Of a stretch of DNA of 64,000 nucleotides, positions 17,311 through 36,755 are shown in pieces. Each line of letters opens with the position of its first letter. Position 1 is the stretch's first letter. The notes under the pieces were generated by a model. It saw only the letters and a program-made list of their open reading frames with translations. It ran no database searches and was not told the origin of the DNA. Source of the stretch: Nitrosospira briensis C-128 (lineage in GTDB: Bacteria > Pseudomonadota > Gammaproteobacteria > Burkholderiales > Nitrosomonadaceae); assembly GCF_000619905.2 (NCBI RefSeq), contig NZ_CP012371.1, positions 434,001 to 498,000 on the forward strand. The letters run 5' to 3'. The position numbers and the translations under genes are program-made.

Positions 17311-17337
17311 ATATGAATAGTTATAAATATTTCATAC
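17311..17337 (-). promoter_or_regulatory. NikR-like operator in front of the ABC importer
   Basis: ATATGA-N15-TCATAC, one mismatch from the E. coli NikR consensus half-site GTATGA; spacing is 15 instead of the E. coli 16. Two other sites in this window (17393-17419, 36592-36618) have the same 15-nt spacing, which supports a genuine operator form in this organism. It lies 59-85 nt upstream of the SBP start, a position compatible with repression. Confidence 0.6.
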
Positions 17338-17362
17338 ACCGGGAAACAGGGAGTTACAATGC

Positions 17363-17392
17363 TTGACATAAAAATCGCTGCCATGATTTAAT
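17363..17392 (+). promoter_or_regulatory. Sigma-70 promoter of the TonB receptor operon
   Basis: TTGACA (17363-17368), 18-nt spacer, TTTAAT (17387-17392). The NikR-like operator starts at the next base, so a bound regulator would cover the transcription start. The leader to the ATG would be roughly 240 nt. Confidence 0.55.
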
Positions 17393-17419
17393 GTATGAAG
17401 ATTTACAAAATATTCATAC
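17393..17419 (+). promoter_or_regulatory. NikR-like operator in front of the TonB receptor-nikR operon
   Basis: Perfect half-sites GTATGA and TCATAC (7-bp arms GTATGAA/TTCATAC) separated by 15 nt. The E. coli nik operator has the same half-sites with 16 nt between. A nikR gene is in the operon it would control. Confidence 0.72.
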
Positions 17420-17480
17420 AACTTGCTCTAATTCAGCTTCAAGCATTTCCTGGCAGGGGATGCCACAAAAACAAGTAAAT

Positions 17481-17500
17481 ATTTGCGAGAGTTCGCAAAT
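17481..17500 (+). other. Leader hairpin
   Basis: ATTTGCGA-GAGT-TCGCAAAT, a perfect 8-bp stem with a 4-nt loop, inside the long 5' leader of the TonB receptor gene. No T run follows. Role unknown; no known riboswitch class was recognised around it. Confidence 0.35.
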
Positions 17501-17641
17501 GCCTGTCACGAAACCTGGTCAACGCACTCATCCGGGCATACATTGCGTTTCACATAGCGCGCACGCTCGGGAAACATCTGCTTTAGCTAACCTCATTTCC
17601 TGCAACTTGCGATCCTGCCAGCGACATTGCCTTGGTGCGGC

Positions 17642-19831
17642 ATGGGTATGTTGATCGCACGCTTATTCCTGTCGGTTTTACTTCTTTTTTTCAGTAGCGG
17701 CAGTGCTTACGCAGAGCAGGCCGCGGATGCCGCTACCGTCAAACCTGAAACCTCGTCGAAACACGAGGTATCTGTAGTCAAGCTGAAGGAGGTCGTAGTA
17801 CTGGGAAAAGAACGTGGCACCAATCTTATCAGCGAAACCCAGTCCGCATCGCAGGGGTTTATCGGTCAAGAGCAGATTAAAAATCGTGCGCTTTCACGGG
17901 CAGGTGAAATCGTCGAGTTCATTCCCGGCATGATTGCCACCCAGCATAGTGGCGATGGTAAAGCCAATCAGTATTTCCTGCGGGGATTCAATCTTGACCA
18001 TGGTACCGATTTCGCTACGTTTGTGGACGGTGTGCCGATTAATCTGCCTAGCCATGCCCACGGGCAGGGTTATATGGATCTGAACGGTCTTATTCCGGAA
18101 TTGGTAGACAATGTTCAATATGGAAAGGGTCCTTACTATGCGGATCAGGGCGATTTTTCCGCAGCCGGACATGCCAAGATGACAACCTTCAACGCCCTCC
18201 CTCAAGGTTTTGCCAAGTTCACGGGTGGATCATTCGGCTTTTACCGCGGGGTGGCAGCCAATTCAAACCGAATGGGGGATGGTCATCTGCTCTATGCAGT
18301 CGATGCGAATACTTATGATGGTCCCTGGGTATTGGCCGAACATGCTCTGAAGTTCAACGGTATGCTCAAATACAGTCTCGACAAAGGTAACTGGGGTATG
18401 AGTGTAGGCGTTAAGGCATACCATGCTGACTGGCGCGCAACCAATCAGATACCGCTGTTTGCGGTTAATGACGGCTCGATAAACCGCTTCGGCAACATAG
18501 ACCCCACCGATAACGGGAAAACCGGGCGTTATACGCTTCATGGTAACTGGTGGCAAAAAGAGAAGGACTACCGGCGGGATGCATCTTTTTATCTGGTTAA
18601 ATACGACCTTGATCTTACCTCCAATTTCAGCGGCTTTATCAACTCGGTCACCGACAATATCGTACTTCCGGGAGGAATAATCCCAAGTGACCAGATGAAT
18701 CAAAGGGAATCCCGCATCTATTTCGGCGGCAGGGCCGAGCAAAGCTGGTTCAACAAGGTGGCCGGTTTCGATATGATTAATACGCTAGGCGTGCAGGTAC
18801 GTAATGACATGAATCGCGTGCTGCTGAACAACTCGAACCGGGGAGTCGTTTATCATAATGTGAGCAGGGATCAGGTCACGGAAACCAGTATCGGCCTATA
18901 TCTGCAAAACCAAACTTACTGGTTGCCCAAACTCAGGACTATTGCAGGCCTGCGTGGAGATATATTCAATTTCGACGTACATGCCTTCACCGTCCCGCAA
19001 AATTCCGGTAACAAGACCGACGGGTTGTTCAGCCCCAAGCTGAGCGTTATTCTCGGCCCTTGGTACGACTCCGAAATTTACCTTAATGCCGGCGAAGGCT
19101 ACCATTCCAACGATGCCCGTGGCGTAACCGCAACTGTAAATACCAATCAAATAGGCAACAATAATTTTGCGCCTCAATTGGCCGCCAATGGGTTGGTGCG
19201 GGCAAGGGGCGCAGAAGTCGGTTTCCGTACCGAAGCCATCAAAGGATTGAAATCCACCCTGGCAATCTGGTATTTGCATTCGGCCTCGGAACTGGTATTT
19301 AGCGGCGATGCAGGCACCACGGAAATGAGCGGCGCAAGCACCCGCTACGGTATTGAGTGGGCCAATTTCTACAAACCCGTTAATTGGCTGACCCTGGATG
19401 CCGATTTTTCGCTTACTCATGCACGCTATGACCAGGCTCAGCTAAATCAGGCCAGCGATCCTGCAAACCAGGCATATGGATTTCATATTCCTAATGCGGT
19501 AGGGCGTACGATCAGCGCGGGTGCAACCCTGAATTTACCCTATAATTTCTTTACTACCCTTCGTGTGCGCCATTTTGGCAATGTGACGGTAGATACAAAC
19601 AATCCTGTTGCCCCCTATAGCACAACTATCGTCAATCTCTCGACAGGATATGAGATGCGTAGGAAATTTAAAATCCAGCTTGATGTATTAAATTTACTTA
19701 ACGCCAAAAACTACGATATCGCTTACTATTATGGCTACCAGACGAGTCCGGCGTCCACAGCGAAAGACGGTATTGTGTTCCACCCTATTGAATCGCGTAT
19801 GTTCCGTGTCAGCTTGATGTATCAATTTTAA
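17642..19831 (+). CDS. TonB-dependent outer-membrane receptor, probable nickel receptor
   Basis: About 729 residues: signal peptide (ARLFLSVLLLFFSSGSAYAE), TonB-box-like VKLKEVVVLGK near the mature N-terminus, plug domain (ALSRAGEIVEFIPGMIATQHSGDGKANQYFLRG, split over residues ~90-125, with FVDGVPINLPSHAHGQGY), then a 22-strand-type barrel ending LMYQF with a terminal Phe. TonB receptors import scarce ligands using proton-motive force. Nickel is inferred from the operator, the co-transcribed nikR and the urease need in this genome. TTG 17627 and ATG 17648 are alternative starts. Confidence 0.88.
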   Translation: MGMLIARLFLSVLLLFFSSGSAYAEQAADAATVKPETSSKHEVSVVKLKEVVVLGKERGTNLISETQSASQGFIGQEQIKNRALSRAGEIVEFIPGMIATQHSGDGKANQYFLRGFNLDHGTDFATFVDGVPINLPSHAHGQGYMDLNGLIPELVDNVQYGKGPYYADQGDFSAAGHAKMTTFNALPQGFAKFTGGSFGFYRGVAANSNRMGDGHLLYAVDANTYDGPWVLAEHALKFNGMLKYSLDKGNWGMSVGVKAYHADWRATNQIPLFAVNDGSINRFGNIDPTDNGKTGRYTLHGNWWQKEKDYRRDASFYLVKYDLDLTSNFSGFINSVTDNIVLPGGIIPSDQMNQRESRIYFGGRAEQSWFNKVAGFDMINTLGVQVRNDMNRVLLNNSNRGVVYHNVSRDQVTETSIGLYLQNQTYWLPKLRTIAGLRGDIFNFDVHAFTVPQNSGNKTDGLFSPKLSVILGPWYDSEIYLNAGEGYHSNDARGVTATVNTNQIGNNNFAPQLAANGLVRARGAEVGFRTEAIKGLKSTLAIWYLHSASELVFSGDAGTTEMSGASTRYGIEWANFYKPVNWLTLDADFSLTHARYDQAQLNQASDPANQAYGFHIPNAVGRTISAGATLNLPYNFFTTLRVRHFGNVTVDTNNPVAPYSTTIVNLSTGYEMRRKFKIQLDVLNLLNAKNYDIAYYYGYQTSPASTAKDGIVFHPIESRMFRVSLMYQF

Positions 19832-19860
19832 AGTTATCGTCTCCTTCTTGAGTAAGGAAT

Positions 19861-20322
19861 ATGGAACGACTCACCATATCGCTGGATAACCAGCTCTCCG
19901 AACAATTTGACGAATTCATACGCGCGCGCGGCTATACCAATCGCTCGGAGGCGATGCGCGACCTGATACGCGACCAACTGGAGACCGCTCGGCTGGAAAA
20001 AGGAGGTGGAGGCCATTGCGTCGCCACGCTCAGCTATATTTACGATCACCACGAAAGCGACCTTGCCAGCCGTGTTACCTCGATACAGCACGATCATCAT
20101 GACCTTACATTGTCCAGCATGCATGTGCACATGGATCATGATAACTGTCTCGAAGTGGTCATCCTGCGGGGCACGATCCAGAGCGTTAAAGATTTTGCCA
20201 ATCTTGTCATGGCTACGCGCGGTGTTCGGCATGGCAAGCTGCACATGGTGCCGGTCGAAATCAGGCAAGAGAGACATTCACACGCTTCCGCGCCGCATAC
20301 TCACAGCAATCCGCTGACCTGA
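19861..20322 (+). CDS. nikR: NikR nickel-responsive regulator, canonical copy
   Basis: 153 residues: N-terminal ribbon-helix-helix (MERLTISLDNQLSEQFDEF ... NRSEAMRDLIRD) and a C-terminal ACT-like nickel domain. All four high-affinity site residues of E. coli NikR (His76, His87, His89, Cys95) are present: QHDHHD gives H77 and SMHVHMDHDNC gives H88, H90, C96. The C-terminus adds a His-rich tail (ERHSHASAPHTHS). RBS AAGGAAT. It starts 29 bp after the TonB receptor stop, so it is in that operon and probably represses it when nickel is plentiful. Confidence 0.95.
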   Translation: MERLTISLDNQLSEQFDEFIRARGYTNRSEAMRDLIRDQLETARLEKGGGGHCVATLSYIYDHHESDLASRVTSIQHDHHDLTLSSMHVHMDHDNCLEVVILRGTIQSVKDFANLVMATRGVRHGKLHMVPVEIRQERHSHASAPHTHSNPLT

Positions 20323-20378
20323 TCATTCGATAAGATCAGTTCGCAGTACTGGAAATACACTTGTAATATATCGCCGTC

Positions 20379-21122
20379 ATGTGTGACGAAAAGAACGCCC
20401 ACCTTCATCGAAATTCGAGCAAACGCTTGTTTCTGAAACTGGTCGCAGCCTCTGCTCTCGGTGCAGGTATTGCCGGGGCAACTGGAAGAACGGCTTTCGC
20501 TGCAAAAGTCAAAATGCCGCCCTTGCCTGAAAACGTGATGACGCCCGATGCAGCGTTGGAACGATTAATGGCAGGTAATGCACGTTATGTAGCCGGGCAG
20601 TCCACGCCTTTGAATTTCAGCAATGATCGAGCAGCCCTGGTCAGTGGGCAGAATCCCTATGCCAGCATTTTAAGCTGCTCCGATTCGAGGGTTGGTCCGG
20701 AGTTCTGTTTTGATGAGCAACGCGGCGATCTGTTCGTGGCTCGGGTGGCCGGTAATTATTTAACCACGGATTTTGTGGCGACTCTCGAGTATGCGGCAGC
20801 TGTATTGCATACGCCACTGATCATGGTGCTCGACCACGAAAGCTGTGGCGCTGTCCGGGCAGCCATTGATTCCGTTGACAACAACACCCAGTTTCCCGGA
20901 CATATTCAATCCATGGCAAGTGCGCTGGCGCCAGCGGTCAGAGCGGCTGCAACCTTGCCAGGCGAGCGCTTTGAGAATGTGGTTAAAATGAACGTCATTC
21001 GCAATGTGGACAAACTGAGAAAACAACCGCCGATTTTGAGCCGCCTGGTCGCGAAAGGAAAAGTTCTTGTAGTGGGCGGCGTATATAGCCTGAAAACGGG
21101 AGAGGTTACACTGGTGGCCTGA
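20379..21122 (+). CDS. Exported beta-class carbonic anhydrase
   Basis: 247 residues. The N-terminus has SSKRLFLKLVAASALGAGIAG, a Lys-Arg pair plus hydrophobic stretch resembling a Tat or Sec leader, so the enzyme is probably periplasmic. Beta-carbonic anhydrase zinc and active-site motifs: SCSDSRV (Cys, Asp-Arg pair) and DHESCGA (His, Cys). It interconverts CO2 and bicarbonate. It lies 56 bp after nikR with no visible terminator, so it may belong to the nickel operon or just follow it. A periplasmic enzyme could supply inorganic carbon or buffer acid from ammonia oxidation (inference). Confidence 0.88.
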   Translation: MCDEKNAHLHRNSSKRLFLKLVAASALGAGIAGATGRTAFAAKVKMPPLPENVMTPDAALERLMAGNARYVAGQSTPLNFSNDRAALVSGQNPYASILSCSDSRVGPEFCFDEQRGDLFVARVAGNYLTTDFVATLEYAAAVLHTPLIMVLDHESCGAVRAAIDSVDNNTQFPGHIQSMASALAPAVRAAATLPGERFENVVKMNVIRNVDKLRKQPPILSRLVAKGKVLVVGGVYSLKTGEVTLVA

Positions 21123-21585
21123 ACGATTTGTATGCGTGAACCTACGGTAAAAAAATCGGAGTGCTTGAACCGGAAGACTTACCCGGGAATTGACTACAAA
21201 AACGTGGGCCGGCTAGCAAGTGGATCAATCGACTCTGCTTCTGTTGATTTTCGGAATTGCATGAAAGGATTAGCGATTACGCCGAGCTATTTTTGACCAA
21301 AAAACTGATGGCACACGCCATGCGAAAATTTACACTCAGAGGAAATTGAAACGGGGCTTACTCATGAACATGCATCCACTCGATGCATATATGCGGAGAA
21401 ATAGTCAAATGTTGTGTATGGCAGCTTAATCAAGCGGCAATTCGTTGATGATTTTCTGTCGTTATGACGCTGTTTTTGAACTGGATGCCAGCAATAACTT
21501 TGGCGATTAATTCAGATCCTCGCAGCCGATTGTTATGGGGCTATTTACGCCGGTCGCTTTCATTTCGTAATAAGGCATAGGACAC
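21123..21585. other. Gene-free stretch
   Basis: 460 bp between carbonic anhydrase and the truncated dioxygenase. No coding-like frame, repeat or terminator recognised. Confidence 0.4.
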
Positions 21586-22281
21586 GTGATCAGGATGCCT
21601 GTTTATTTTCTTTCGCATGGCGGCGGGCCATGGCCATATGTCGAAGGCATGAGGCAGCAGTTCGCCAAGACAGAGCGTGAGTTCAGGGCGCTGCCTGAAC
21701 GCCCGCCGGCCAAACCGAAAGCGGTGTTGATGGTTACCGGCCACTGGGAAGCCGACGAGTTCACAGTCTCATCGGCGGAATATCCTCCGATGGAGTACGA
21801 CTACTACGGATTCCCCGCTCATACCTATCACATTAAATACCCTGCGCCGGGTTCCCCCCAGCTTGCTTCAAGAGTGAAAACGTTACTGTCGAATGCCGGC
21901 TTTTCCGCAAAGGAAGACTCCGGCCGCGGCTTTGATCATGGGACGTTTGTTCCACTTGCATTGATGTACCCGAACGCAGATATGCCGGTTGTGATGCTAT
22001 CGCTGAAATCGGGATATGACCCGCAGGAACATATTCGCGCCGGTCAGGCGCTTCAGCCTTTGCGTGACGAGGGAGTACTGATTATCGGCAGCGGCCTGAC
22101 TTATCACAACATGAGAGGTTTTGGCAGAGATGAATCTACACCGATTGCCGAAGCATTCGAAAACTACCTGAACAATGCGATTGAACAAGGCGATACCAAG
22201 GTAAGAAAACGCGCAGGAATCAGAAGTGAGCCAATACCAAATCGCCGTTGTCGCCGGCAGCCTTCGCAAGGACTCATTTAA
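21586..22281 (+). pseudogene. DODA-type extradiol dioxygenase (LigB family), C-terminus lost
   Basis: The first ~200 residues are a good match to the LigB/4,5-DOPA dioxygenase fold: SHGGGPWPYVEG, VTGHWEADEF, GFDHGTFVPL and GSGLTYHNMRGFG carry the metal and active-site His residues. After about NAIEQGDTKVR the frame runs into the 5' region of another gene (FMN reductase fragment), replacing the family's C-terminal His/Glu segment. A deletion fused the two genes, so the enzyme is probably inactive. GTG 21586 has RBS AGGACAC; ATG 21595 is the alternative. Confidence 0.7.
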
Positions 22282-22282
22282 T
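22226..22282 (+). pseudogene. N-terminal scrap of an NADPH-dependent FMN reductase
   Basis: From GTG 22226 (RBS CAGGAA) the frame reads VSQYQIAVVAGSLRKDSFN, the N-terminal flavin-binding GSLRKDSFN motif of the NADPH-dependent FMN/chromate reductase family. Beyond that the sequence is the end of an IS5-type element, so only about 19 codons survive. Confidence 0.6.
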
Positions 22283-22850
22283 GAAACCAAGGTTCAAAAC
22301 CAGTTGCCGTGTTTCATTCCCCTCGTAGGCGCGATCCATCACCAGATGAACTGGCCAGCGGGGCTTGGCCAGGCTGCCGAGCAGCTTGCGTCCCTCCACC
22401 GGCAGTGAGCCTGTCCGGGGGACAGCGCAAACGTTATAGCCGTTCGAGCATTCGCGGCAACCATATGAATTTTGGTGGTCCACCCGCCTCTGGATCTGCC
22501 GATGGATTGGGGACCATTCTTTTTAATGCCCCGGTGCCGTCCGGATGAACCTTCACAATGGTGCTGTCCAGGGAAACGGCCTCGATCCTGATACGAATGA
22601 TCTGTGCTCGCTGCAACTGCTCAAACACCTGATCCAGCATACCGCTTTTGCTCCAGCGGTTCATGCGCGTGTAGATAGTATGCCAATTACCGAAGCGTTA
22701 GGGCAGACCGTGCCACTTGCAGCCATGCTCGGCCACATACAAAATGGCGTTCAATACGTTCAGATTACTGAGACTGACATTGCCCCGCTGAAGCGGCAGG
22801 CAGTGTACGATTCGCTCGTACTGGCTTGAGTGATTTCCATGCCCATAAGT
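22282..22850 (-). mobile_element. Decayed IS5-family insertion sequence
   Basis: The minus strand encodes pieces of an IS5/IS427-type transposase in several frames: NLNVLNAILYVAEHGCKWH..., then MNRWSKSGMLDQVFEQL, EAVSLDSTIVKVHPDGTGAL (DDE Asp region) and, shifted, LVMDRAYEGNETRQL (second catalytic Asp). A stop before RFGNWHTIYTRM and at least one frameshift make it inactive. It sits inside an FMN reductase gene. The left end is truncated and the right end is uncertain. Confidence 0.7.
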
Positions 22851-22968
22851 GTACCCGAATACATGCAATATGGTTATTAGAGTTAACAGGTCCTAGCTTC
22901 AGGTAGGATTACGTACGCCGCCCAGTGCAAACAATTCGCAGTTGCCTGACGTAGCGATTTTTCAACCG

Positions 22969-23000
22969 CTTTCTTGTTTCCATCCTTTCTTGTTTCCATC
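22969..23000. repeat. 16-bp perfect tandem duplication
   Basis: CTTTCTTGTTTCCATC occurs twice back to back in the gap between the IS scar and the aldehyde dehydrogenase 3' end. Confidence 0.8.
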
Positions 23001-23095
23001 ACCACCTATACTCATGTATCAATCGGGGGCTCGCACAAAGCAATCAATCCTGACCCCTTGATTGATCTTTCTTCCCCCGGTCAAGTTCGGCTTTT

Positions 23096-24595
23096 TTAGA
23101 ATGGATAAGCCGGCCGGGAATGCTGAACGGTTATCCAGTGATCCCGGGTGAACTCGTGAAGAATCCACTCGCCGCCAAACCGCCCGATACCGCTGTTTTT
23201 CTCGCCGCCGAACGGCCCGGTTGACGTGTCGTCCACGCTATGGTCGTTGACGTGGGTCATGCCCGCGTGCACGCCCAGCGCAAACCGGACGCCGCGCTCC
23301 TGGTCGCGAGTGAAGACGGCGCTTGAGAGTCCGTACTGGGTATCGTTGGCAACCCGTAATGCCTCAGCCTCTCCATCGACCTTGATAATGGGCGCAATCG
23401 GACCAAACATTTCATCCTGAGCGACCTGCATATCGTTTGTTACATCCACGAACACGTGCGGAGGCAGCACCTGCCCTTCCGGATCTCCGCCCACCACCTG
23501 GCGCGCTCCCGCGGCGCGGGCGCCCTCTATATGCGCCAGGTGCGCCGCAAGCTGCTTCTTGTTAATGACGGGTCCAATCGCGACGGCCGGATCGCTGGGG
23601 TTTCCATACTTCAGGCCTTTGACGTGCGCCGTAAAGCGATCCACGAATTCGTCATACACTTTGGCATCGACGATGATACGGTTTGTGCTCATGCAGATCT
23701 GGCCTTGATGGAGATATCGCCCGATAACAGTGGCACGCACCGCATGCTCCACGTCGGCGTCATCCAGGATAACGCAAGGCGCATTTCCACCAAGCTCAAG
23801 TGCGACGCGTTTCATTTGCGGACCGCTCATCGCGAGTTGTCCAATGTGCCGGCCGACCTTGGTGGAACCCGTAAAAGAAATCAGGCGCGGTATCGGATGC
23901 AAGGTGAATGCATCGCCTATCTCTTTCACGTCCCCGATAACGACATTCAGAAGACCGGGCGGCAACCCCGCTTCCTCATAAATCCTTGCGATCAGCAACC
24001 CGCCCGTAACAGGCGTGTCCTCCGCCGGCTTGACCACGACTCCATTGCCAAGCGCCAACGCGGGCCCGATCGAACGGTGGGATAAATACATCGGGAAATT
24101 CCATGGGCTGATGACCCCGATCACGCCGAGGGGCTGGCGGTAAGCCCGGCTCTCCTTGCCGGTTTCATCGATGGGGAGGATTCGGCCTTCGGCCCGGTGA
24201 GGAAACGATGCGGCCTCCAGCGTAATGGAATGGAGGAACTGCCATTCCAGTTCGGCCTTGAAGCGGGTGCTGCCCGATTCCCGGATGAGCCAGCCGATGA
24301 TTTCCTGGCGGCGCGCTTCCATGATAGCGGCGGAGCGGAGCATGACGGCTGCGCGCTCGGAGGGAAGAAGGGCCGCCCATCCGATCTGGGCTTTTGCGGC
24401 AGACCGGTAAGCCTCGTCGAGATCGTCCACATTCGCCAGAACAGTCTCTGCGAGCGTATCTCCCGAATACGGATCGGTATCCTCCCGTATTCCCCCTTGC
24501 TTGCCGGGACGCCATGCGCCGCTAATATATTGCCCATTGAAACCCGAGTATGGGCGGCCGCTTCCATTTGTTGCTGCGCCAGATTCGTTTGCCAT
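23096..24595 (-). CDS. NAD(P)+-dependent aldehyde dehydrogenase, benzaldehyde/vanillin type
   Basis: 499 residues of the ALDH superfamily: cofactor site [11 protein letters not shown] and [12 protein letters not shown], catalytic Glu in ALELGGNAP, catalytic Cys in [11 protein letters not shown], and the C-terminal [15 protein letters not shown]. The sequence resembles aromatic-aldehyde dehydrogenases, but the substrate cannot be settled. I chose ATG 24595 (RBS GGGAGC); the open frame extends upstream to 24643. The F420-type reductase gene lies about 110 bp upstream on the same strand. Confidence 0.92.
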
Positions 24596-24708
24596 CGCTG
24601 CTCCCGCTGTTGTTTGGTTAAAAATGAAATCGGAGAATCCCACAAAACCCCTGTTGTAACGCCATGAGCCGAAAAAAATGAGGGGGCAGGCGCTGCCCGC
24701 TCACCCGC

Positions 24709-25284
24709 CTAATGAATAAATTTGAATCCGACGTTGGTGCCATTGCCCAGAACATATCCAAGCTGGATATTAAAATATCCTAATGCCTCAAGCTGACGCG
24801 CGTTGGCGAGGGGGCCTGCATCGACCGCATCGAATCCGATTGCCCTGCCAAAATCCAACGCCATGCTACGGGCTTGCTGGTCATCGCTTGCGGCAAACAG
24901 GGTGAGCTGCTGCCCCAACACGCTGCCTGTATCCATATGTTGTGCAAAGACGGTATTGAAGGCTTTGACGACGCGCGCCTTCGGGGCTTTCCTTTGCAGC
25001 GCTTCAGCGCCACTGGTTGAAAAACCGAGTGCCAGCCGCATGTCTTGAGTCAATGCATTGGTTACATCCACAACCACTTTCCCGTCAATTGCATCTGCCA
25101 GCTCATGCAGCACAGCGTCGATTGCAGTGTAGGGAACCGCGATCATCACGACCTCGCCCCAGTTTGCGGTTTCCTTTACCGTTTCCTTGCGGCTGTTACG
25201 AACTTCATAGCCGGCCCGGGCGAGGCCCCGGTTAAGTGCGCCGCCAACATTTCCACTTCCTATAATCGCGATTTTCTGCACCAT
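24709..25284 (-). CDS. NADPH:F420-reductase-like NADP-binding oxidoreductase
   Basis: 191 residues with an N-terminal Rossmann motif (IAIIGSGNVGGALNRGLARAG), NSRKET at the NADP phosphate-binding turn, and VVDVTNALTQD and VVKAFNTVFAQHM typical of the NpdG/COG2085 family. Bacterial members are reductases of unknown substrate; F420 itself is not expected here. RBS AAGGAGGATGAT. Possible two-gene unit with the ALDH downstream. Confidence 0.85.
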   Translation of the reverse strand: MVQKIAIIGSGNVGGALNRGLARAGYEVRNSRKETVKETANWGEVVMIAVPYTAIDAVLHELADAIDGKVVVDVTNALTQDMRLALGFSTSGAEALQRKAPKARVVKAFNTVFAQHMDTGSVLGQQLTLFAASDDQQARSMALDFGRAIGFDAVDAGPLANARQLEALGYFNIQLGYVLGNGTNVGFKFIH

Positions 25285-25324
25285 ATCATCCTCCTTATTG
25301 TCCGAATACGATTTGACCAGCCGT

Positions 25325-25339
25325 CCTTGCGGCGCAAGG
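25325..25339. repeat. Short perfect inverted repeat
   Basis: CCTTGCG-G-CGCAAGG, 7-bp arms, about 40 bp upstream of the NpdG-like gene. It could be a regulator site or chance; the rest of 25285-25615 holds nothing recognised. Confidence 0.3.
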
Positions 25340-25615
25340 GAAAGAATAGCTCACTCAGGCCGCAATTGCGCGGTCTGACAGAGCTATGCCATTCACTGAT
25401 GTTGCGGCTTCATGCTTGACTATCAGCGTCCCTCGCATCATAAAATAATTAGGGCGGTATGTTTATAGTACACCTATGGCAAAAATCGTCAGTGACCACT
25501 GAGATACAGGGGTGTTGCGTTATTCAGCTATGCTATAAATAACTTTAATGTTGATCGTGCGTGGCCGATCTATCCATTCCGAAATAGCGTCGAACCTGAC
25601 CGAAAGGGGAACGAT

Positions 25616-26257
25616 ATGAAAATAGCACTATTGGGAGCAACGGGTTTCGTCGGTTCCACGCTGTTGAAAGAGGCGCTCGACAGAGGGCATTCAGTCACCG
25701 CGATCGTGCGCCACCCCGAGAAGCTCGAAAAACGGGATCGGCTCAACGCAAAAGCCGGGGATGTGTATGACACAGCACTTCTTGCGGCCTTGCTCAGCGG
25801 GCATGATGCGGTGATCAGCGCTTTCAATCCCGGCTGGAAGAATCCAGACCTCTACGACGACCAGGTGCGCGGCACAACATCGATCATCGCGGCTATAAAG
25901 AAGGCCGGTATCCGGCGTGTCCTTTGGGTGGGAGGGGCCGGCGGCCTGGAGGTCAAGCCAGGCGTGCGCGTAGTGGATGGCCCCGACTTTCCGGACTGGA
26001 TAAGACCGGGCTCATTGGCGACGATTGATGCGCTGGAACGATTGCGAAAGGAGCCGCAACTCGAATGGTCCTATCTGGCCCCTTCGGCAAATATGCAGCC
26101 GGGCCAGCGCACCGGCAAATTCCGCTTGGGAGACGATCGGCTCCTGCTCGATGCCAGCGGCCAGAGCAGCATTTCGGTTGAGGATTATGCGGTCGCGATG
26201 ATCGACGAACTGGAACACCCTGCGCACATTCGGCAGCGCTTCACTGCCGGGTACTGA
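25616..26257 (+). CDS. NAD(P)-binding epimerase-like oxidoreductase (YwnB type)
   Basis: 213 residues, short-chain atypical fold: LLGATGFVGSTLLKEALDRG nucleotide-binding loop, VRHPEKL and GHDAVISAFNPGW, then RVLWVGGAGGLEV. This is the NAD(P)H-binding family (COG2910) near NmrA-like proteins; the reaction is not established. RBS AAAGGGGAA. Stands alone on the + strand. Confidence 0.85.
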   Translation: MKIALLGATGFVGSTLLKEALDRGHSVTAIVRHPEKLEKRDRLNAKAGDVYDTALLAALLSGHDAVISAFNPGWKNPDLYDDQVRGTTSIIAAIKKAGIRRVLWVGGAGGLEVKPGVRVVDGPDFPDWIRPGSLATIDALERLRKEPQLEWSYLAPSANMQPGQRTGKFRLGDDRLLLDASGQSSISVEDYAVAMIDELEHPAHIRQRFTAGY

Positions 26258-26395
26258 TAGCAGAAGGAAGATTCGGCGATGGTCCTTGCAGACCGGGTTA
26301 GCGCAGTCTCATCCTGATTCATTTATTTGTTTGTTTATGAGCCAAAGCAATACCAAGTTGTAATCAGGAACCCTCAACACAACCAAGGAAAAATC

Positions 26396-26941: not shown

Positions 26942-26946
26942 CAGTA

Positions 26947-28574: not shown

Positions 28575-28604
28575 GCCGCGGCGCCAGGGGACTGGGGCCG
28601 TAAG

Positions 28605-29300
28605 GTGTTTGCTTCCGCTGCTTTTGACGTGGATGCTGCGATGAAGATTTTCGTGCTGGCGCTCGATCTTGCCGGCACCTTCGTTTTCGCGCTGAGCGGA
28701 GCGGCGGCCGGTGTCAAGCGCCGGCTTGATCTTTTCGGAGTCCTGGTGCTGTCCTTTGCCGCAGGCAATTCCGGAGGAATCTTCCGCGATCTGCTGATCG
28801 GCGCAATCCCGCCCGCGGCAATCAGCGACTGGCGCTATCTGGCGGCCTCGCTTTTTGCCGGCATGCTCACATTTTTTTGGTATCCCGCCATTAATCGACT
28901 GCGCAATCCCGTACTTATATTCGATGGCGCGGGGCTAGCGCTGTTCTGCGTTTCCGGTGCGCAGAAGGCCATCGGCTTCGGTCTCGACCCGGTCATGGCG
29001 GCACTGCTGGGCATGCTGACTGGAGTCGGCGGCGGTATGGCGCGCGATGTACTTCTGTCTGACGTTCCTGTTGTCTTGCGATCCGATATTTATGCCGTCG
29101 CTGCCCTTGCTGGAGCGGCCGTGGTGGTGATTGGCGATGCGCTACAACTTCCATCCGCTGCAACGACATGCGCCGGCGCGGCTCTCTGCTTTGGCCTGCG
29201 CCTGGCGGCCATCCGACACGGCTGGCATCTGCCGATCGCCCACCCGCCCGAACATCCTGGCGCGAAAATAGACGCTGCGGAAAATCGGAAGGATCGTTAG
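28605..29300 (+). CDS. TRIC-type (UPF0126/YicG) membrane channel protein
   Basis: 231 residues with two repeats of three hydrophobic segments, typical of bacterial TRIC cation channels: DLAGTFVFALSGAAAGVKRRLDLFGV, AAGNSGGIFRDLLIG in repeat 1 and GAGLALFCVSGAQKA, TGVGGGMARDVLL in repeat 2. The Gly-Gly-x-x-RD motifs are the family mark. A GTG at 28605 or ATG at 28641 may be the start; the ATG would give the normal N-terminus. The gene is GC-rich and only 30 bp after the M20 gene. Confidence 0.88.
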   Translation: MFASAAFDVDAAMKIFVLALDLAGTFVFALSGAAAGVKRRLDLFGVLVLSFAAGNSGGIFRDLLIGAIPPAAISDWRYLAASLFAGMLTFFWYPAINRLRNPVLIFDGAGLALFCVSGAQKAIGFGLDPVMAALLGMLTGVGGGMARDVLLSDVPVVLRSDIYAVAALAGAAVVVIGDALQLPSAATTCAGAALCFGLRLAAIRHGWHLPIAHPPEHPGAKIDAAENRKDR

Positions 29301-29324
29301 TCGGCCGACGAAAGTGGCATCACC

Positions 29325-29559
29325 GAGCTGTCTCTGGAATGGATGCCCGACAAATGGCGCATTGATATTTGGGAAATGCCAGGCCGAGGGCTCATCGAAT
29401 TTTCATCGTAAATACTTCGAACAAGCTGTCTTTTCGGCAGTGATGGACGAGTTAAAGTCGGGCGACTTGTACGTGGAGCACAGTGGCGAGTACGACGACT
29501 ATCGCAATCATCTGGTGAGTTGGGAAGAGTATGAGGAAGAGGTTCAGGGATACGGGGAG
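29325..29559 (+). pseudogene. Tn3-family transposase relic
   Basis: Two frames show Tn3 transposase pieces: LSLEWMPDKWRIDIW and, shifted, FHRKYFEQAVFSAVMDEL then KSGDLYVEHSGEYDDYRNHL and VSWEEYEEEV. The WxPDKW and LKSGDLY...DYR..L.SWEEYE pattern is characteristic of Tn3-type transposases. There are no ends, start or intact domain, so this is a dead fragment between the TRIC gene and the urea transporter. Confidence 0.7.
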
Positions 29560-29588
29560 CCAACTCCGCCGTTCCCCCTCCCCCGTCG

Positions 29589-30548
29589 TTACTTGGCTGA
29601 AGGTGCTGACCAATATTTGGACATTCCGGCAGCAAACAGAAACATCCACATGACCAGGACAAACGGGAATGTGAGCGTCGGCAAACCTATCGGCGTGAGA
29701 AAACTGGCCAGCCCAGCTTGGCACACCACCGTTAGTATGCCCGCCAATAGCGCCAACGCGGCACTTCTACCGGTAGGTTTAAGGAAGACCCAGCCCACCG
29801 CCATCATCGTCAAAACTGGATTGAATGCATACAGCCCCATCTCAATCGCATTCTGGTTTGCCCCAAAAATCATGGGTACGATCAAACCCACCACCGCCCC
29901 ACCCACCGCCATCAGCGCTCCCCGCAATGAAACTATTGCGATACCCACCAAAAACAGGATACCGACAATAACGCTATCCGCAAACATGACCTCGCCTACG
30001 CCTTTTGCGAGCGCGATAAACCATATCTCGGCTGGAAGCGTCCCCACACCCGTCACGATGGTGGGAATACCGGGCAAGGGTAAAATCGGACCCCGAGTAA
30101 AGCTGTCAAACGCGTACACCGCGACCAGGAACATCCAGCAGGTCAGGACAAATGGTGAGGTCGAGGCTGGAACGTTATAAGGATGAAGAATTCTCATGAG
30201 CGCCGCCAGCACGATACTCGATAATATCGAGGCCAGAACGACGTACAGCCAGAGCTGCGGTGAATGCTCCAGGAATAAAAAAAGGCATGGACCTACCAGC
30301 GTACCGTTGAATCCGTATAGTCCCGCCTCGATATCATCCTCGGAGAAACCGAGAACGTAAGCCGCCACAGTGCTGCTTATCACGCCGACGGTAGCGGCAG
30401 CGCCCGCAGCCAAACCACCGATAAAAAGTGCAAGCAGAAAGATAAATCCCGTCACCGCGTTACAACAAAAAAATACTTGCCCGACACCTCTAAAAATTAT
30501 GCGCAGCGGCCGGGGCAGCGCCGCATCTATTTTTAATGACCAATTCAT
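29589..30548 (-). CDS. Urea transporter (UT/Yut family)
   Basis: 319 residues, about ten hydrophobic segments in two homologous halves, each with the UT signature L-P-x-x-T-x-P-F: VPASTSPFVLTCW in the first half and GLPTLTFPFVLVMW in the second; also GLYGFNGTLVG and GLYAFNPVLT. UT proteins are passive urea channels in the inner membrane. RBS GGAGGTGAATA. It follows ureG on the same strand with a MITE-like element between, and supplies urease with substrate. Confidence 0.93.
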   Translation of the reverse strand: MNWSLKIDAALPRPLRIIFRGVGQVFFCCNAVTGFIFLLALFIGGLAAGAAATVGVISSTVAAYVLGFSEDDIEAGLYGFNGTLVGPCLFLFLEHSPQLWLYVVLASILSSIVLAALMRILHPYNVPASTSPFVLTCWMFLVAVYAFDSFTRGPILPLPGIPTIVTGVGTLPAEIWFIALAKGVGEVMFADSVIVGILFLVGIAIVSLRGALMAVGGAVVGLIVPMIFGANQNAIEMGLYAFNPVLTMMAVGWVFLKPTGRSAALALLAGILTVVCQAGLASFLTPIGLPTLTFPFVLVMWMFLFAAGMSKYWSAPSAK

Positions 30549-30569
30549 TATTCACCTCCAGAATTTTTC

Positions 30570-30738
30570 TTATCCCGGATGTTTCATAAATTCGCGTGAT
30601 GATTGCGCAGGGTTTTGTTTTGTAGGGAAATTTTGTGAAAGAGTGGTGTAGTTATTCATACACCCGACTGAACGAAATTTTCATACGAAACAAAAGACCA
30701 GCGAGGGCGCGCGTCAATTTATGAAACATCCGGGTTAT
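30570..30738. mobile_element. MITE-like insertion with terminal inverted repeats and TTAT duplication
   Basis: A 161-bp core (30574-30734) is bounded by inverted ends CCCGGATGTTTCATAAATT / AATTTATGAAACATCCGGG, flanked on both sides by TTAT (30570-30573, 30735-30738) as a target duplication. There is no coding capacity. The ends and 4-bp duplication resemble those of IS1380-type elements (inference). It separates ureG from the urea transporter gene and contains two GTATGA direct repeats on the minus strand. Confidence 0.75.
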
Positions 30739-30840
30739 GTGATCGCTGTATTTCTTTGCGTTGCGGTTGCATGGAAAGCACGGCCATCTATTGATAATTC
30801 TGTGATGTATCGCGTAGGTAAAGCAAATAAGAGCAATTCG

Positions 30841-31494
30841 TCAGCTAGCTGCCGGTAAATCCAAATTTCGAGACTTCATTTCTTCCAGCAATCCCTGTTT
30901 TACGATGAAATCGATGATTTCCTGAACACCTTCCCCAGTTCGTAAATTGGTAAAGACAAACGGCCGGTCCCCACGCATCTTCTTCGCATCGCGGGCCATT
31001 ACACCAAGATCCGCACCGACGTAAGGTGCAAGGTCGATCTTGTTGATAACGAGCAAGGCGGAACGTGTAATACCAGGCCCACCCTTGCGCGGTATTTTTT
31101 CGCCGGCGGCAACGTCGATCACATAGATGGTCAGATCGGAAAGCTCCGGGCTGAAAGTCGAGGCAAGATTGTCGCCTCCGGACTCGACCAGGATAAGATC
31201 GAGGTCAGGAAAGTCGGCGGTCATGCGCGCTATGGCTTCCAGGTTGATCGATGCGTCCTCTCTTATCGCCGTGTGCGGGCAACCGCCGGTTTCGACACCC
31301 ATCAAACGCTCAGCCGGTAGCGCATCGGCACGCAGCAGAATCTCCATATCTTCTTTAGTATAGATATCGTTGGTGATGACGGCCATTTCATAGCGATCAC
31401 GCATTCCTTTGCTAAGCGCTTCGCATAAAGCGGTTTTTCCAGAACCGACGGGGCCGCCTATACCGACGCGCAGGGGATTTGATGATTTTGTCAT
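30841..31494 (-). CDS. ureG: Urease accessory GTPase UreG
   Basis: 217 residues. P-loop [26 protein letters not shown], the Ni-binding Cys-Pro-His in [18 protein letters not shown], and [11 protein letters not shown] as the guanine-specificity motif. UreG hydrolyses GTP to drive nickel insertion into the urease active site together with UreF, UreD/H and UreE. RBS CGGAAAC. Last accessory gene of the cluster. Confidence 0.97.
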
Positions 31495-31515
31495 TTTTGT
31501 TTCCGATTAGACAAT

Positions 31516-32199
31516 TCAGGACCGGTAGATCCGGCTGTATTGAACTTCATGCTGCATGGATAATAAGGACAGACCGGGCGCCCAATTGGATAACTCGTCG
31601 TCCGCCAGTCGCTGTGCGTGATTCGATGCGTTTTCCAGAACGGGGTGCAGGGAAAGCAGAAGACGCTGCCCTGAAACCTGCCCAAGCGGAACAGACTTCA
31701 CACAGGCCAGCACCTGATTCTCAATCATGGAAAACAACATTCCAAGCAAGGCGGCTTCATGCGGTACCGCCAGTGCCTCTGCGGCACAGGCAAACGCCGT
31801 AGGCAGAGGAATCTCGGGCTGGCTCGTCAATATCTTCAGAAGCTCGTCATCCGCGATTTTAAGATCTGCCACCAGCTTGGCGAGAGAATATCCCATCTGA
31901 ATTGTTTCGGCGCGGAACTCGGCGGTATCACGCGCCGCAATGAAGCATTCCGTCCAATATGTGGCTGCCGCCATGTCCCGAGCGGAAAAAGCCTTCAATA
32001 AACGCCAAAGTACCGGCGCTTCAAAGTCCGCGACGACAGCAAGCGATTCGGTGATCCAGGCATGGGCAGAGCTCTCGTCCTTGACCATGCCGGTCTCGAT
32101 GGCCGCTTCCAATCCCTGCGAATAGGTATAGGCGCCAATCGGTAGCGACGGGCTCGCCAATTGCAGCAATCGAAGCAATATCGGGCTTTCCATTGTCAT
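31516..32199 (-). CDS. ureF: Urease accessory protein UreF
   Basis: 227 residues, all-helical UreF: LLQLASPSLPIGAYTYSQGLE near the N-terminus is the family signature, and GQVSGQRLLLSLHPVLENA lies in the C-terminal conserved part. It bridges UreD and UreG in the nickel-loading complex. ATG follows the ureE stop directly (TGAATG). Confidence 0.95.
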   Translation of the reverse strand: MTMESPILLRLLQLASPSLPIGAYTYSQGLEAAIETGMVKDESSAHAWITESLAVVADFEAPVLWRLLKAFSARDMAAATYWTECFIAARDTAEFRAETIQMGYSLAKLVADLKIADDELLKILTSQPEIPLPTAFACAAEALAVPHEAALLGMLFSMIENQVLACVKSVPLGQVSGQRLLLSLHPVLENASNHAQRLADDELSNWAPGLSLLSMQHEVQYSRIYRS

Positions 32200-32739
32200 T
32201 CAGGGTATTTTCGAGTCCGTCGCACGGTGAATTTTCTGGTGCGCTGGAATCGGAGCCAATGGACCATGACTATGTGAATGACCGTGGCTCTCATCGTCAT
32301 GATGATGATGGCCTCCACCCGCGCTGTAGGCGCCCGACTCCGGCTCGAATTGTGCATTTTCTTCGACCACCGTAGCACCCAGCCCCAACAGCATCTCTCT
32401 CAGTACGCTGTCTTGATAGATACGTAAAAAATCCTCGCCCACCTGGGTCTGTGTATGACGGTTACCCAGATGAAAGGCACAGCGCAAAAGATTATGCGAA
32501 GTATTGCAGGTAACCCGGTAGGTCGGTTCTTGTGCCGCGACGATCTGCACCACCCGGCCATCGTCGCTCCTCAGCAAGTCGTTATTGCGAAGCACCGTGC
32601 CCCGCTCGGTAAAAATGGCAACTTCTTCGCCTGATGCAAGCTTCGTGCGCAAACGGCTGTTTTCGCGCAATTCGTAGGGTAGAACAAGCTGAGCGGAAAT
32701 CGAGTCCGCATGCTCCGTTCTGGCGTTCAATGTAAGCAT
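32200..32739 (-). CDS. ureE: Urease nickel chaperone UreE
   Basis: 179 residues. The N-terminal peptide-binding domain (residues 1-75) and C-terminal metal domain with CAFHLGNRHTQTQVG carrying the conserved His; the C-terminus is a His-rich tail GGGHHHHDDESHGHSHSHG that binds extra nickel. UreE delivers nickel to UreG. RBS TTTGAGG. About 220 bp separate it from ureC, more than in the rest of the operon. Confidence 0.95.
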   Translation of the reverse strand: MLTLNARTEHADSISAQLVLPYELRENSRLRTKLASGEEVAIFTERGTVLRNNDLLRSDDGRVVQIVAAQEPTYRVTCNTSHNLLRCAFHLGNRHTQTQVGEDFLRIYQDSVLREMLLGLGATVVEENAQFEPESGAYSAGGGHHHHDDESHGHSHSHGPLAPIPAHQKIHRATDSKIP

Positions 32740-32832
32740 TTACAGGCCTCAAAGGTCAGAATTTTGTATTGTTACTATGTTGTTGCGATCACGGTGCCAG
32801 TAAGAAGCAGCGGAAGCGAACCCTTGGACTTA

Positions 32833-32856
32833 CTCCTGAAACTTACCCTTCAGGAG
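32833..32856. other. Stem-loop between ureC and ureE
   Basis: CTCCTGAA-ACTTACCC-TTCAGGAG, a perfect 8-bp stem. No T run follows on either strand, so it is not an obvious terminator; it could stabilise processed mRNA ends. Confidence 0.4.
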
Positions 32857-32960
32857 GTAACAAAATCTACTGGCCCACCCCGGCGAACAATGCGCCGATC
32901 CCACGCCCGGCTCCATCCGGTCTACCCGGCAATTCCCGGTAAAAAATGGAAATCACCTCA

Positions 32961-34667
32961 TCAAAACAGAAAGTACCGCTGCGCCATCGGCAAAACATCT
33001 TCCGCTCCACACGTCAGCAGTTGCCCGTCGGCCCGCACCTCATAGGTTTCGGGATCGACTTCCATCTTGGGTGTTGCCCCATTATGGATCATGTCCTTCT
33101 TGCGTAAATTGCGTGTGTTCTTGACCGCAATCAGGTTCTTGTCCAGCCTCAAGGTATCGATCAGCCCCGCGTTAATGGCCGCTTGGGAGGTAAAGGTGAA
33201 ACACGATGTCTTGATACCCCCACCGTATCCGCCGAACATGTATCGGTAATGTACCGGCTGCGGGGTGGGAATCGAAGCATTCGGATCACCCATCAGGGAC
33301 GCCGCTATCATTCCGCCTTTCAGTATCACGGACGGTTTGACGCCAAAGAACGCGGGTCTCCATAAGACGAGGTCGGCATACTTGCCTACTTCTACCGAAC
33401 CAATCGCATGCGAAACACCCTGTGTAATGGCCGGGTTGATGGTGTATTTCGCAATATAGCGCTTGACGCGGAAATTATCGTTCCTGGAATTGTCTTCCTG
33501 TAGCGTGCCACGCTGTATCTTCATTTTGTGCGCGGTCTGCCACGTACGCAGGACCACCTCACCGATGCGGCCCATTGCCTGCGAATCCGATGACATCATC
33601 GAAATGGCACCCATGTCATGAAGAATATCTTCGGCCGCGATGGTCTCCTTACGGATGCGGGATTCCGCGAAGGCGAGATCTTCCGCGATGTTGGCATGCA
33701 GGTGATGACATACCATCAACATATCCAGATGTTCGTCCAGTGTATTGACCGTATAGGGACGTGTCGGATTGGTGGATGACGGCAGCACATTTTCCTGGCC
33801 GACGACCGCTATGATGTCGGGCGCATGGCCGCCCCCGGCACCCTCGGTATGGAAAGTGTGAATGGTCCGGTCTTTAAATGCGGCAACCGTGTTTTCCAGA
33901 TAACCGCCTTCATTGATGGTGTCCGTGTGGATAGCGACCTGCACATCGTATTTGTCCGCAACATTAAGGCAGTTGTCGATGGCCGCATAGGTCGTACCCC
34001 AGTCTTCGTGCAACTTGAGGCCACATGCTCCCGCCAAAATCTGCTCTTCATTGGGAGTCGGCAGGCTGACATTACCCTTTCCGTAAAAACCGGTGTTCAT
34101 CACCATGCCGTCGGATGCTCTCAGCATGGAATGGATGTGCCAGGGGCCGGGTGTACACGTGGTAGCAGCTGTGCCGACCGCCGGGCCGGTACCACCGCCC
34201 AGCATGGTGGTCGTGCCATTCATCATCGCGTCTTCCGCCTGCTGCGGACAGATGAAGTGGATATGGCTGTCGATAGCGCCCGCTGTCACAATCATATTCT
34301 CGCCTGCGATAATTTCCGTGGCGGCGCCAATGCACATCGTGATATTGGGCTGGATATCCGGGTTTCCTGCTGAGCCGATTGCGGCAATCTTGCCGCCTTT
34401 CAGCCCGATATCGGCCTTGACGATCCCCCAGTGGTCCACAATGACTGCGTTGGTGATGACCGTATCCATCACATCGGCGTGGTTGCGCTGAGATTGACCC
34501 ATCCCGTCACGGATCGTCTTGCCACCACCGAACTTCACTTCTTCACCATACGTGGTGAAATCTTTCTCGATTTCGATAAAAAGTTCCGTATCAGCCAAGC
34601 GGAGACGATCACCGGTAGTGGGGCCCATCATTTCAACATATGCCTGACGGGAAATTTTAAAAGTCAT
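32961..34667 (-). CDS. ureC: Urease alpha subunit UreC
   Basis: 568 residues, the catalytic subunit hydrolysing urea to ammonia and carbamate. Visible active-site parts: HIHFICPQQ (His pair), the carbamylated Lys in GLKLHEDWG, His in [12 protein letters not shown] and [13 protein letters not shown], and the flap motif [13 protein letters not shown] with the catalytic His. RBS GAGGAGC. Full length and intact; released ammonia would feed ammonia oxidation in the proposed host. Confidence 0.98.
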
Positions 34668-34703
34668 TTTTATGCTCCTCAGTAGATTATTGGCGGTGCG
34701 CTG

Positions 34704-35027
34704 TTATTTCAGCTTGCCCATCACTTTCTGGTTGAATCCGTAGACGATCCTGTCTCCCGCGAGTTCAACCAGCTCAACCGTACGCTCCTGGCCTGGCTCA
34801 AAACGCACGGCCGTGCCCGCCATGATATTCAGGCGCATGCCATAGGCAGCCTCCCGGTCAAACTTCATTGCGGAATTGACTTCATAAAAGTGAAAATGCG
34901 AGCCGATTTGTATCGGGCGGTCTCCCCCGTTCGAGGCTTTTAATGTTTTGGTTTTTCTACCGACATTCAGTTCGATATCGCCGGGTTGCACAAATACTTC
35001 ACCGGGTACCATTGGCGTTCTGGCCAT
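34704..35027 (-). CDS. ureB: Urease beta subunit UreB
   Basis: 107 residues: [25 protein letters not shown]-type turn here [21 protein letters not shown], and [17 protein letters not shown] are family hallmarks. It forms the (ABC)3 apoenzyme with UreA and UreC. RBS CAGGAG. Confidence 0.97.
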
Positions 35028-35044
35028 AATAATCTCCTGGTTTC

Positions 35045-35347
35045 TTAAGGAATCGGATTGTGAACAGTCACAAGCTTGGTGCCGTCAGGGAACGTGGCCT
35101 CGACCTGGATATCGGGGATCATCTCGGGAACTCCCTCCATCACATCGGCGCGGGTCAGTACGCGAGTGCCTGCGGCCATGAGCTCCGCGACGGTATTACC
35201 GTCGCGCGCTCCCTCCAGCACCGCACAGGTGATCAGCGCGACCGCTTCCGGATAGTTGAGCCGCAGGCCACGCGCCTTGCGCCGTTCCGCCAGCAGCCCC
35301 GCAGTAAATATCTGAAGCTTGTCTTTTTCTCTGGGTGTAAGGTCCAT
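35045..35347 (-). CDS. ureA: Urease gamma subunit UreA
   Basis: 100 residues: [20 protein letters not shown] start, [41 protein letters not shown]. All are diagnostic for urease gamma. RBS GAGGAGGAAGC. First structural gene, preceded by an apparent terminator that separates it from ureD. Confidence 0.97.
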
Positions 35348-35420
35348 TGCTTCCTCCTCGGTAAATTAAATGGTTGTCGCTAATTCTCTGAGCACTACAA
35401 TAAATCTGATTCGCGGGGCG

Positions 35421-35448
35421 AAAAAAAAGCCGCTTACAGGAAAACGGC
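35421..35448 (-). terminator. Intrinsic terminator or attenuator between ureD and ureA
   Basis: On the minus strand: GCCGTTT-TCCTGT-AAGCGGC followed by eight T residues. It begins 6 nt past the ureD stop and ends about 75 nt before the ureA start, so it could reduce readthrough from ureD into ureABCEFG. A promoter for ureA would then be expected in 35348-35420. Confidence 0.6.
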
Positions 35449-35453
35449 AATTG

Positions 35454-36395
35454 TCATGTATTCCACAACCGTGGCACTGCAAGCTGGCGGCCCAGCATCG
35501 CCGGGCGAAGCAATCCCCAGGCATGCAGCATTAATTGCCGCGCGGTTTCGCTGGAATCCCCAAGGTAGCGCGCAACCACTATCTGTTTTGATTGGCTGAT
35601 GCCAAAACAGCCTGCACCATTCGCGATGGCACTGGCACCTTCGCGCGCTTCGTGCAGCAGTGCGCCGGGCACCGCTTTGCCTACTGCAATCAATGTTGCA
35701 CAGACCGTGCTGTCAGCAAGAACCAGAGAAGCTTTCATGGCCGGGCTGCCGCCCAGTAACCGCAGTTGCTCGAACCAGACCAGTTTGCCATCGCGATGAA
35801 TGCGGGTGCGCTGCCTGATCTGGCCGCCGCTGAATGACTCGCCAAACGCGGTACGCCCAAAGCATAAGATCTCACAACTGATATAGCTCGCGTCCTTTTC
35901 CAGCAACACGTGATGGTCAAGCTCTACATGGGCATTATCGAAAAAGATCGTTTCCTGGGGCACCCATTCGAGCGAACCGCCGACGCCCACATCGAGTCTG
36001 ATATTCTGGTGCGAAACATGGCCGTTGGCTTTGTACCACTTGGCTGCGCCGGGTGTGGTGATTTGCGCATTCGCGGATGCGCCGACCTTGGCAACAATCT
36101 CCAGCTCGTCTCCTCCCACCACACCGCCCGGCGGATGAATGATTACTACCTGGCAGACCTCGCGACCTTCGGGATAAAGCGGCTTTTGCACCAGCAAGGG
36201 GCCGAAGTGCTCCCGACCCACCAACCGGGTAGTGCCCGCATCATCCGCAAACCCGAGAGACAACCGCGCTTGCAACGGCACATGAGATACGCCTGACGTC
36301 GGTTGAGTCAAAACCTTTTGTAGAGCCGGACGATTGGAGGAGAGGACGCGGTCTTGCTGAATACGAAGACCTTCCGCATGAGAAATCGAGTGCAT
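35454..36395 (-). CDS. ureD: Urease accessory protein UreD
   Basis: 313 residues: VIIHPPGGVVGGDELEI, TTPGAAKWYKANG, WVPQETIFFDNAHVELDH and CFGRTAFGESFSGG are the UreD/UreH family blocks. It is the scaffold that binds apo-urease and receives UreF-UreG. First gene of the urease cluster. No strong RBS; the N-terminus is about 35 residues longer than the conserved core, so an internal start is possible. Confidence 0.95.
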   Translation of the reverse strand: MHSISHAEGLRIQQDRVLSSNRPALQKVLTQPTSGVSHVPLQARLSLGFADDAGTTRLVGREHFGPLLVQKPLYPEGREVCQVVIIHPPGGVVGGDELEIVAKVGASANAQITTPGAAKWYKANGHVSHQNIRLDVGVGGSLEWVPQETIFFDNAHVELDHHVLLEKDASYISCEILCFGRTAFGESFSGGQIRQRTRIHRDGKLVWFEQLRLLGGSPAMKASLVLADSTVCATLIAVGKAVPGALLHEAREGASAIANGAGCFGISQSKQIVVARYLGDSSETARQLMLHAWGLLRPAMLGRQLAVPRLWNT

Positions 36396-36755
36396 TTTTT
36401 GGTTGTTATTGATTAATGTCCATCAAAAGGTTAAACCCACCCGCTTCATCCGGTCCAGCTGGTGAGATGAGGCGCGACACCATGTCTCAAAAACAGCTGA
36501 AAGGCTTTGCTTTATTCCCGATAGTGTCACAAACATATACCCGCTTGCGTGCAAAGTAAATAGTGGTGCGAAAAAATCTCCCAAAATAAGCGTATGAAAA
36601 TTAAGCATTTTTTAATACAATTTACGCTTTTGCCTGAACCGGGCATGGTAACGGAGCATAACAATGCGCCCTGCATGAATAACAAGTATTTGTATCAATC
36701 GACCGATACCAAATCACTATCGAACTCAGCCTTCGGTAAGACACGCTGTCGAGCT
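36396..36755. other. Upstream region of the urease operon
   Basis: 360 bp between the porin stop and ureD. It holds no gene; the only recognised signal is the NikR-like site at 36592-36618. Confidence 0.5.
36592..36618 (-). promoter_or_regulatory. NikR-like operator upstream of the urease operon
   Basis: GTATGA-N15-TAATAC, one mismatch from the perfect half-site pair and exactly the same spacing as the two sites at 17311 and 17393. It is about 197 nt upstream of the ureD start on the urease side of the gap. The DNA around it is A/T-rich. Confidence 0.5.

Follow-up and report, generated by a model that had tools for sequence, protein, structure and literature searches.

Three 27-bp inverted repeats in the genome of Nitrosospira briensis C-128 are, on sequence comparison, very probably NikR operators. 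They lie within the window, the 64,000-nucleotide stretch analysed here (C1:434001-498000 of the single-contig, 3,210,113-base genome), near genes for a metal ABC importer, for a TonB-dependent receptor with nikR and for urease. The explanation that best fits the whole, and that we hold to be highly likely, is that the repeats would be operators of NikR1, placing nickel uptake and nikR itself under feedback and tying urease to nickel. This reading draws on conserved half-sites with a fixed 15-nt spacer, a recurring gene linkage and an intact nickel site in NikR1. Urease requires nickel, and it allows ammonia oxidizers to subsist on urea, that applied as fertiliser included. The features concerned are:

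14565..15455, minus strand: ABC-3 permease of the importer (PF00950, E 9.5e-70)
15455..16312, minus strand: ABC ATPase of the importer (PF00005)
16284..17264, minus strand: ZnuA-family substrate-binding protein, predicted nickel importer subunit (PF01297, E 4.8e-69)
17311..17337, no strand: predicted NikR operator 1, ATATGA-N15-TCATAC, on the importer side of the divergent region (matrix score 27.2)
17363..17392, plus strand: sigma-70-like promoter TTGACA-N18-TTTAAT (11/12 match), abutting operator 2
17393..17419, no strand: predicted NikR operator 2, a perfect GTATGA-N15-TCATAC, on the TonB side (matrix score 29.3)
17627..19831, plus strand: TonB-dependent outer-membrane receptor (PF00593 and PF07715)
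19861..20322, plus strand: nikR1, nickel-responsive regulator retaining the full set of four nickel ligands (PF08753, PF01402, PRK02967)
20379..21122, plus strand: carbonic anhydrase, downstream of nikR1 (PF00484)
29589..30548, minus strand: urea transporter, Yut type (PF03253; TIGR03441, 349.6 bits, cut-off 274.6)
30841..35347, minus strand: ureA, ureB, ureC, ureE, ureF and ureG (named from their translations)
35454..36395, minus strand: ureD, at the head of the urease operon (named from its translation)
36592..36618, no strand: predicted NikR operator 3, GTATGA-N15-TAATAC, in the interval between the porin end and ureD (matrix score 27.1)
41240..41707, minus strand: nikR2, a paralogue that has Asp in place of the nickel ligand His87 and lacks three residues (domain match and ligand alignment)

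All three sequences are present where the initial annotation had placed them, and each is a GTATGA/TCATAC repeat of the 27-28 bp class, with one mismatch each in sites 1 and 3. The neighbours it had named are there as well: a ZnuA-family ABC importer (14565-17264, minus strand), the TonB receptor with nikR (17627-20322, plus strand) and ureDABCEFG, running from 36395 down to 30841 on the minus strand. Operators 1 and 2 share the 362-bp gap (17265-17626) that separates the TonB-nikR operon from the divergently oriented importer genes; operator 3 lies 197 bp upstream of the ureD start (36395), and the porin stop is at 36756. The promoter said to stand directly before site 2 does so, ending at 17392, one base ahead of it. 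A strict promoter scan, requiring A at position 2 of the −10 element, did not list 17363-17392. Promoter positions did not align across relatives, a point that we counted against the NikR1-operator reading. The only promoter-like match on the urease strand, at 36422-36394, does not rise above chance (the region gave 2 matches, with 0.8 expected).

First, the gene neighbourhood recurs. NikR was identified in 65 of the 125 family genomes, and we gathered 68 family stretches around nikR, which with the window make up 69 island loci (counts include near-identical relatives; one scan of relatives used the best 80 of at least 576 confirmed relatives). The recurring island consists of porin-ureDABCEFG-urea transporter-(carbonic anhydrase)-nikR-TonB receptor, with a divergent ZnuABC-type importer. 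Linkage was counted over the 64 loci with a NikR1 best match, including the window and several loci cut by contig ends: 51 of them have the importer no more than 8 kb from NikR, 53 have the TonB receptor no more than 4 kb away, and 53 have urease or urea-transporter genes at a distance of up to 10 kb. An operator-like site stands in 44 of the 51 importer upstream regions, a figure that is partly circular because the scoring matrix was trained on those regions; in the other seven no N15 site reaches a score of 15, which we weighed against the NikR1-operator reading. Within the family, the leg made up of importer, TonB receptor and nikR is conserved. The receptor slot itself (17627-19831 in the window) is filled by two types, ~79-88% identical in a few relatives and ~40% identical in most.

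Second, the repeats stand clear of the background in which they lie. The 27-position matrix was derived from 43 distinct importer-side sites of relatives, with the window excluded, and the best position in the window after the three sites scores 11.9. None of 1,000 dinucleotide shuffles per intergenic region reaches the observed best (29.3 and 27.1), the maxima being 14.6 and 12.7, respectively. The intergenic DNA of the 69 loci contains 34 perfect GTATGA/TCATAC pairs with spacing 15, a single one with spacing 25 (in the window, upstream of nikR2) and none with any of the other 21 spacings in the range 8-30; pairs with one mismatch occur 20 times at spacing 15 and 0-1 times at every other spacing. 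Pairs with two mismatches show no enrichment (8 at spacing 15 against 1-15 elsewhere), a result counted against the NikR1-operator reading. That the repeats arose by chance in AT-rich intergenic DNA seems barely credible: the shuffles, the spacing histograms and the recurrence in place contradict it, as the initial annotation had expected, although the six places found genome-wide at up to one mismatch are close to what composition would give.

That genome-wide scan, which had been proposed as a check, does not discriminate. The six places at spacing 15, three of which are the window sites (spacing 16 gives two), compare with about 7 expected by hand calculation (uniform bases, 37 words of 4^12), so the motif count alone proves nothing. 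With up to two mismatches the genome holds 68 matches per strand at spacing 15 against 46 for a reversed control pattern, and 58 against 69 at spacing 16; the window holds 19 against 10.5 expected, and 3 of 100 shuffles are as high. The evidence lies in position, neighbours and spacer content, not in genome-wide counts.

Third, the nickel site of NikR1 is intact. Its ribbon-helix-helix and NikR_C domains (PF01402 and PF08753) both score above cut-off, and it reaches 201 bits against PRK02967 (cut-off 83) and 163.8 bits against TIGR02793, under the cut-off of 175.45. The nickel ligands of NikR, His76, His87, His89 and Cys95 (PMC7055735), are all kept in NikR1 (HHHC). NikR2 reads HDHC at these positions and lacks the full set of four, and its 3-residue deletion falls in the loop before the metal site; by this alignment, NikR2 of N. 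briensis C-128 has lost a nickel ligand. Across 229 distinct NikRs, 227 are HHHC, one is HDHC (the NikR2 of the window) and one is HHRC (L190). Elsewhere in the genus, six NikR2-like copies are HHHC with the loop intact, and four of these adjoin yaeQ. Upstream of nikR2, at 41734-41770, we observed a perfect GTATGA-N25-TCATAC, its spacer equal to the normal one plus ten bases, or about one helical turn; none of 1,000 shuffles holds any perfect pair at spacing 8-30, and five relatives scanned upstream of nikR2 gave no N15-type operator.

The importer has the make-up of a ZnuABC/TroA-type system, with a PF01297 binding protein, a PF00950 permease and an ABC ATPase. It scores below the zinc equivalog cut-offs (AztC 181.9/350, ZnuA 90.3/268, AztB 197.1/280 and AztA 163.8/220 bits), and none of the listed zinc and manganese equivalog models reaches its cut-off with the importer proteins. 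NicO, HupE/UreJ and CbiM have no match in the same genome. From the linkage to NikR operators and urease, we infer that the importer carries nickel. The genome paper for N. briensis C-128 describes a urease operon and a urea transporter and states that hydrogenase genes were not identified (PMC4964001), so urease is a likely main nickel user. As the sole PF01297 match in its genome, the importer could serve zinc. This, its membership of a zinc/manganese family (PF01297/PF00950) and the presence of a second NikR ~5 kb beyond ureD would suit sites bound by a different regulator, NikR2 or a zinc sensor for instance. We consider that very unlikely, given that the half-sites are the published NikR ones, that the same half-sites and spacing appear in 17 of 40 nikR-centred loci from other families of the order, and that NikR2 is without one nickel ligand in this genome.

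The 15-nt spacer of the putative NikR1 operators had been called unusual, a description that does not survive comparison. In the 17 loci from other families, all 19 sites with at most one mismatch have spacing 15. Spacings 15 and 16 both occur in the phylum-level sample, where L219-L238 overlap shorter loci from genomes already represented, so that some sites enter the raw totals twice. Restricted to distinct NikR loci and to within 5 kb of nikR, with 18 UreC-internal matches removed, the count over all NikR loci is 56 distinct perfect site sequences at spacing 15, 8 at 16, 1 at 25 and none elsewhere; for one-mismatch sites it is 42 at 15 and 7 at 16, with no other spacing giving more than 6 (range 0-6). 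Among the 229 distinct NikRs, 86 are labelled N15, 14 are labelled N16 and 129 have neither site in the DNA examined. Fifteen nucleotides is the usual spacing for this NikR branch. Moreover, NikR signals in enterobacteria and delta-proteobacteria were described in 2004 as 27-28 bp repeats with N13/14 between 7-mers (PMC545781), which corresponds to N15/N16 between 6-mers, so the 27-bp form was already published. The spacer is normal in this lineage, and the sites are for the most part a typical case of something already described.

In a tree built from the 103 NikRs with a spacing label (labels that predate the removal of the UreC-internal matches), a branch with support 82/61 sets nine N16 rows apart on one side, eight of them with support 99/88, and five further N16 rows are dispersed. 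The labels need 6 changes at the fewest, against 13.3 when shuffled, on a tree of few columns whose bootstrap had not settled. Within the genus, the one perfect spacing-16 site belongs to L062 and stands ~200 bp before the importer and ~3.2 kb before nikR; the NikR of L062 sits in the spacing-15 branch despite that site, which falls outside the 69-locus intergenic count through the gene filter. A separate observation concerns coding DNA: all 17 coding matches to N15 motifs (at most one mismatch) in the family loci are in UreC, for example at L057 182-208 and L083 14722-14748. They probably represent one homologous stretch; we took them as a coding coincidence that can mislead motif scans.

Residue 7 of E. 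coli NikR contacts DNA. Among the distinct sites compared, none of the 20 half-sites belonging to Thr7 NikRs has A as base 7, and 139 of the 206 belonging to Ser7 NikRs do; Ser7 goes mostly with A and sometimes T, Thr7 mostly with T and sometimes C, at both spacer lengths. As a lead from these alignments, NikR residue 7 appears to go with operator base 7, an association for which we claim no significance because the tree contains only about two independent switches. The Ser7/Thr7 difference as a strict determinant of spacing was rejected, as two Thr7 NikRs have N15 and six Ser7 NikRs have N16; of the six N16 sites of Ser7 NikRs, only those of L062 and L316 are perfect.

The third leg of the proposed nickel/urease regulon is less even. 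The importer and TonB-nikR operators recur family-wide with nikR alongside, and that part of the proposal stands; for urease, the operon is plausibly a NikR target, more weakly so than the other two. The urease link is patchy in the family, since only 5 of 47 loci (the window, L077, L095, L098 and L115) have a site scoring at least 15 in the 500 bp before ureD. Three close relatives that were aligned (L054, L055 and L058) have no ureD-upstream site of that score, and L055 shows only a degenerate match scoring 8.4. Such scarcity would be expected if operators 1 and 2 were genuine while the repeat upstream of ureD were a relic or a chance match and urease were not nickel-regulated. We judge this unlikely, though less so than either alternative above: the site scores 27.1 against a shuffle maximum of 12.7 for that region, and the other four matches, like that of the window, fall in the same porin-ureD interval.

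Under the favoured assignment of all three repeats to NikR1, Ni-NikR1 tetramers would bind half-sites about two helical turns apart when nickel is sufficient. Operator 2 would overlie the region where transcription from the TonB-nikR(-carbonic anhydrase) promoter starts, with operator 1 lying before the importer, and binding would shut off the TonB receptor, the ZnuABC-type importer and nikR itself. Such negative feedback by Ni-NikR1 on nickel uptake and nikR is the reading that the arrangement best supports. The operator upstream of ureD may tie urease expression to nickel, by activation or by repression. In Helicobacter, NikR activates urease.

The predicted system has parallels in known ones. 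As the initial annotation had noted, E. coli NikR uses the same half-sites with a 16-nt spacer, its operator at nikABCDE being GTATGA-N16-TCATAC (PMC7055735). N. briensis shares with it the half-sites, the regulator family and a metal importer as target, but differs in the spacer (15 rather than 16), in residue 7 of NikR (Ser rather than Thr) and in its targets, a ZnuABC-type importer and a TonB receptor, with a site also at urease. With the NikR signals of delta-proteobacteria and enterobacteria it shares the 27-bp geometry, one of two published lengths (PMC545781); the delta-proteobacterial half-sites are GTGTTAC, unlike GTATGA here, and the importer family differs. The NikR regulon of Helicobacter pylori includes nixA, urease, frpB4, fecA3 and others (PMC7055735). 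N. briensis would resemble H. pylori in that NikR governs nickel uptake, outer-membrane uptake factors and urease together. By E-value, NikR1 stands closer to E. coli NikR (8.4e-38) than to H. pylori NikR (2ca9, E 4.7e-20). The H. pylori NikR operator is also looser. In the literature searched, which covered few subscription papers, we found no report of a NikR regulon in Nitrosospira or Nitrosomonas and no paper concerned by title with a NikR-controlled ZnuA-type nickel importer beside urease; the NikR passages of PMC2667541 do not mention a ZnuABC-type importer.

The recurring NikR-controlled island predicts which genes supply urease with nickel and offers a candidate ZnuABC-type nickel importer, and the two operator spacing classes on the NikR tree form a compact system for the adaptation of a tetrameric repressor to operator geometry. 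A broader scheme, possible but somewhat doubtful, is that ammonia-oxidizing bacteria acquire urease nickel through a TonB receptor together with a branch of the ZnuABC zinc/manganese family dedicated to nickel, that the 27-bp operator geometry is inherited by clade with NikR, and that residue 7 (Ser/Thr) sets base 7 independently of spacing.

Each of the other three places in the genome that match at spacing 15 with up to one mismatch overlaps an ORF of at least 100 codons, and a regulon extending beyond the three sites was rejected on that ground. A search of a plasmid collection with the divergent region gave no match. The matrix was applied to seven of the listed genome-wide places; one of the ORF-overlapping places, 1572446, scores 20.8. 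A two-mismatch site in AT-rich DNA (G000:C1:641180-641206, L125), ~99 bp upstream of a 371-aa ORF, scores 24.5 and is a possible further NikR target. Within the window, beyond nikR2, a repetitive 1296-aa ORF on the minus strand (42784-46674) looks autotransporter-like from its translation alone.
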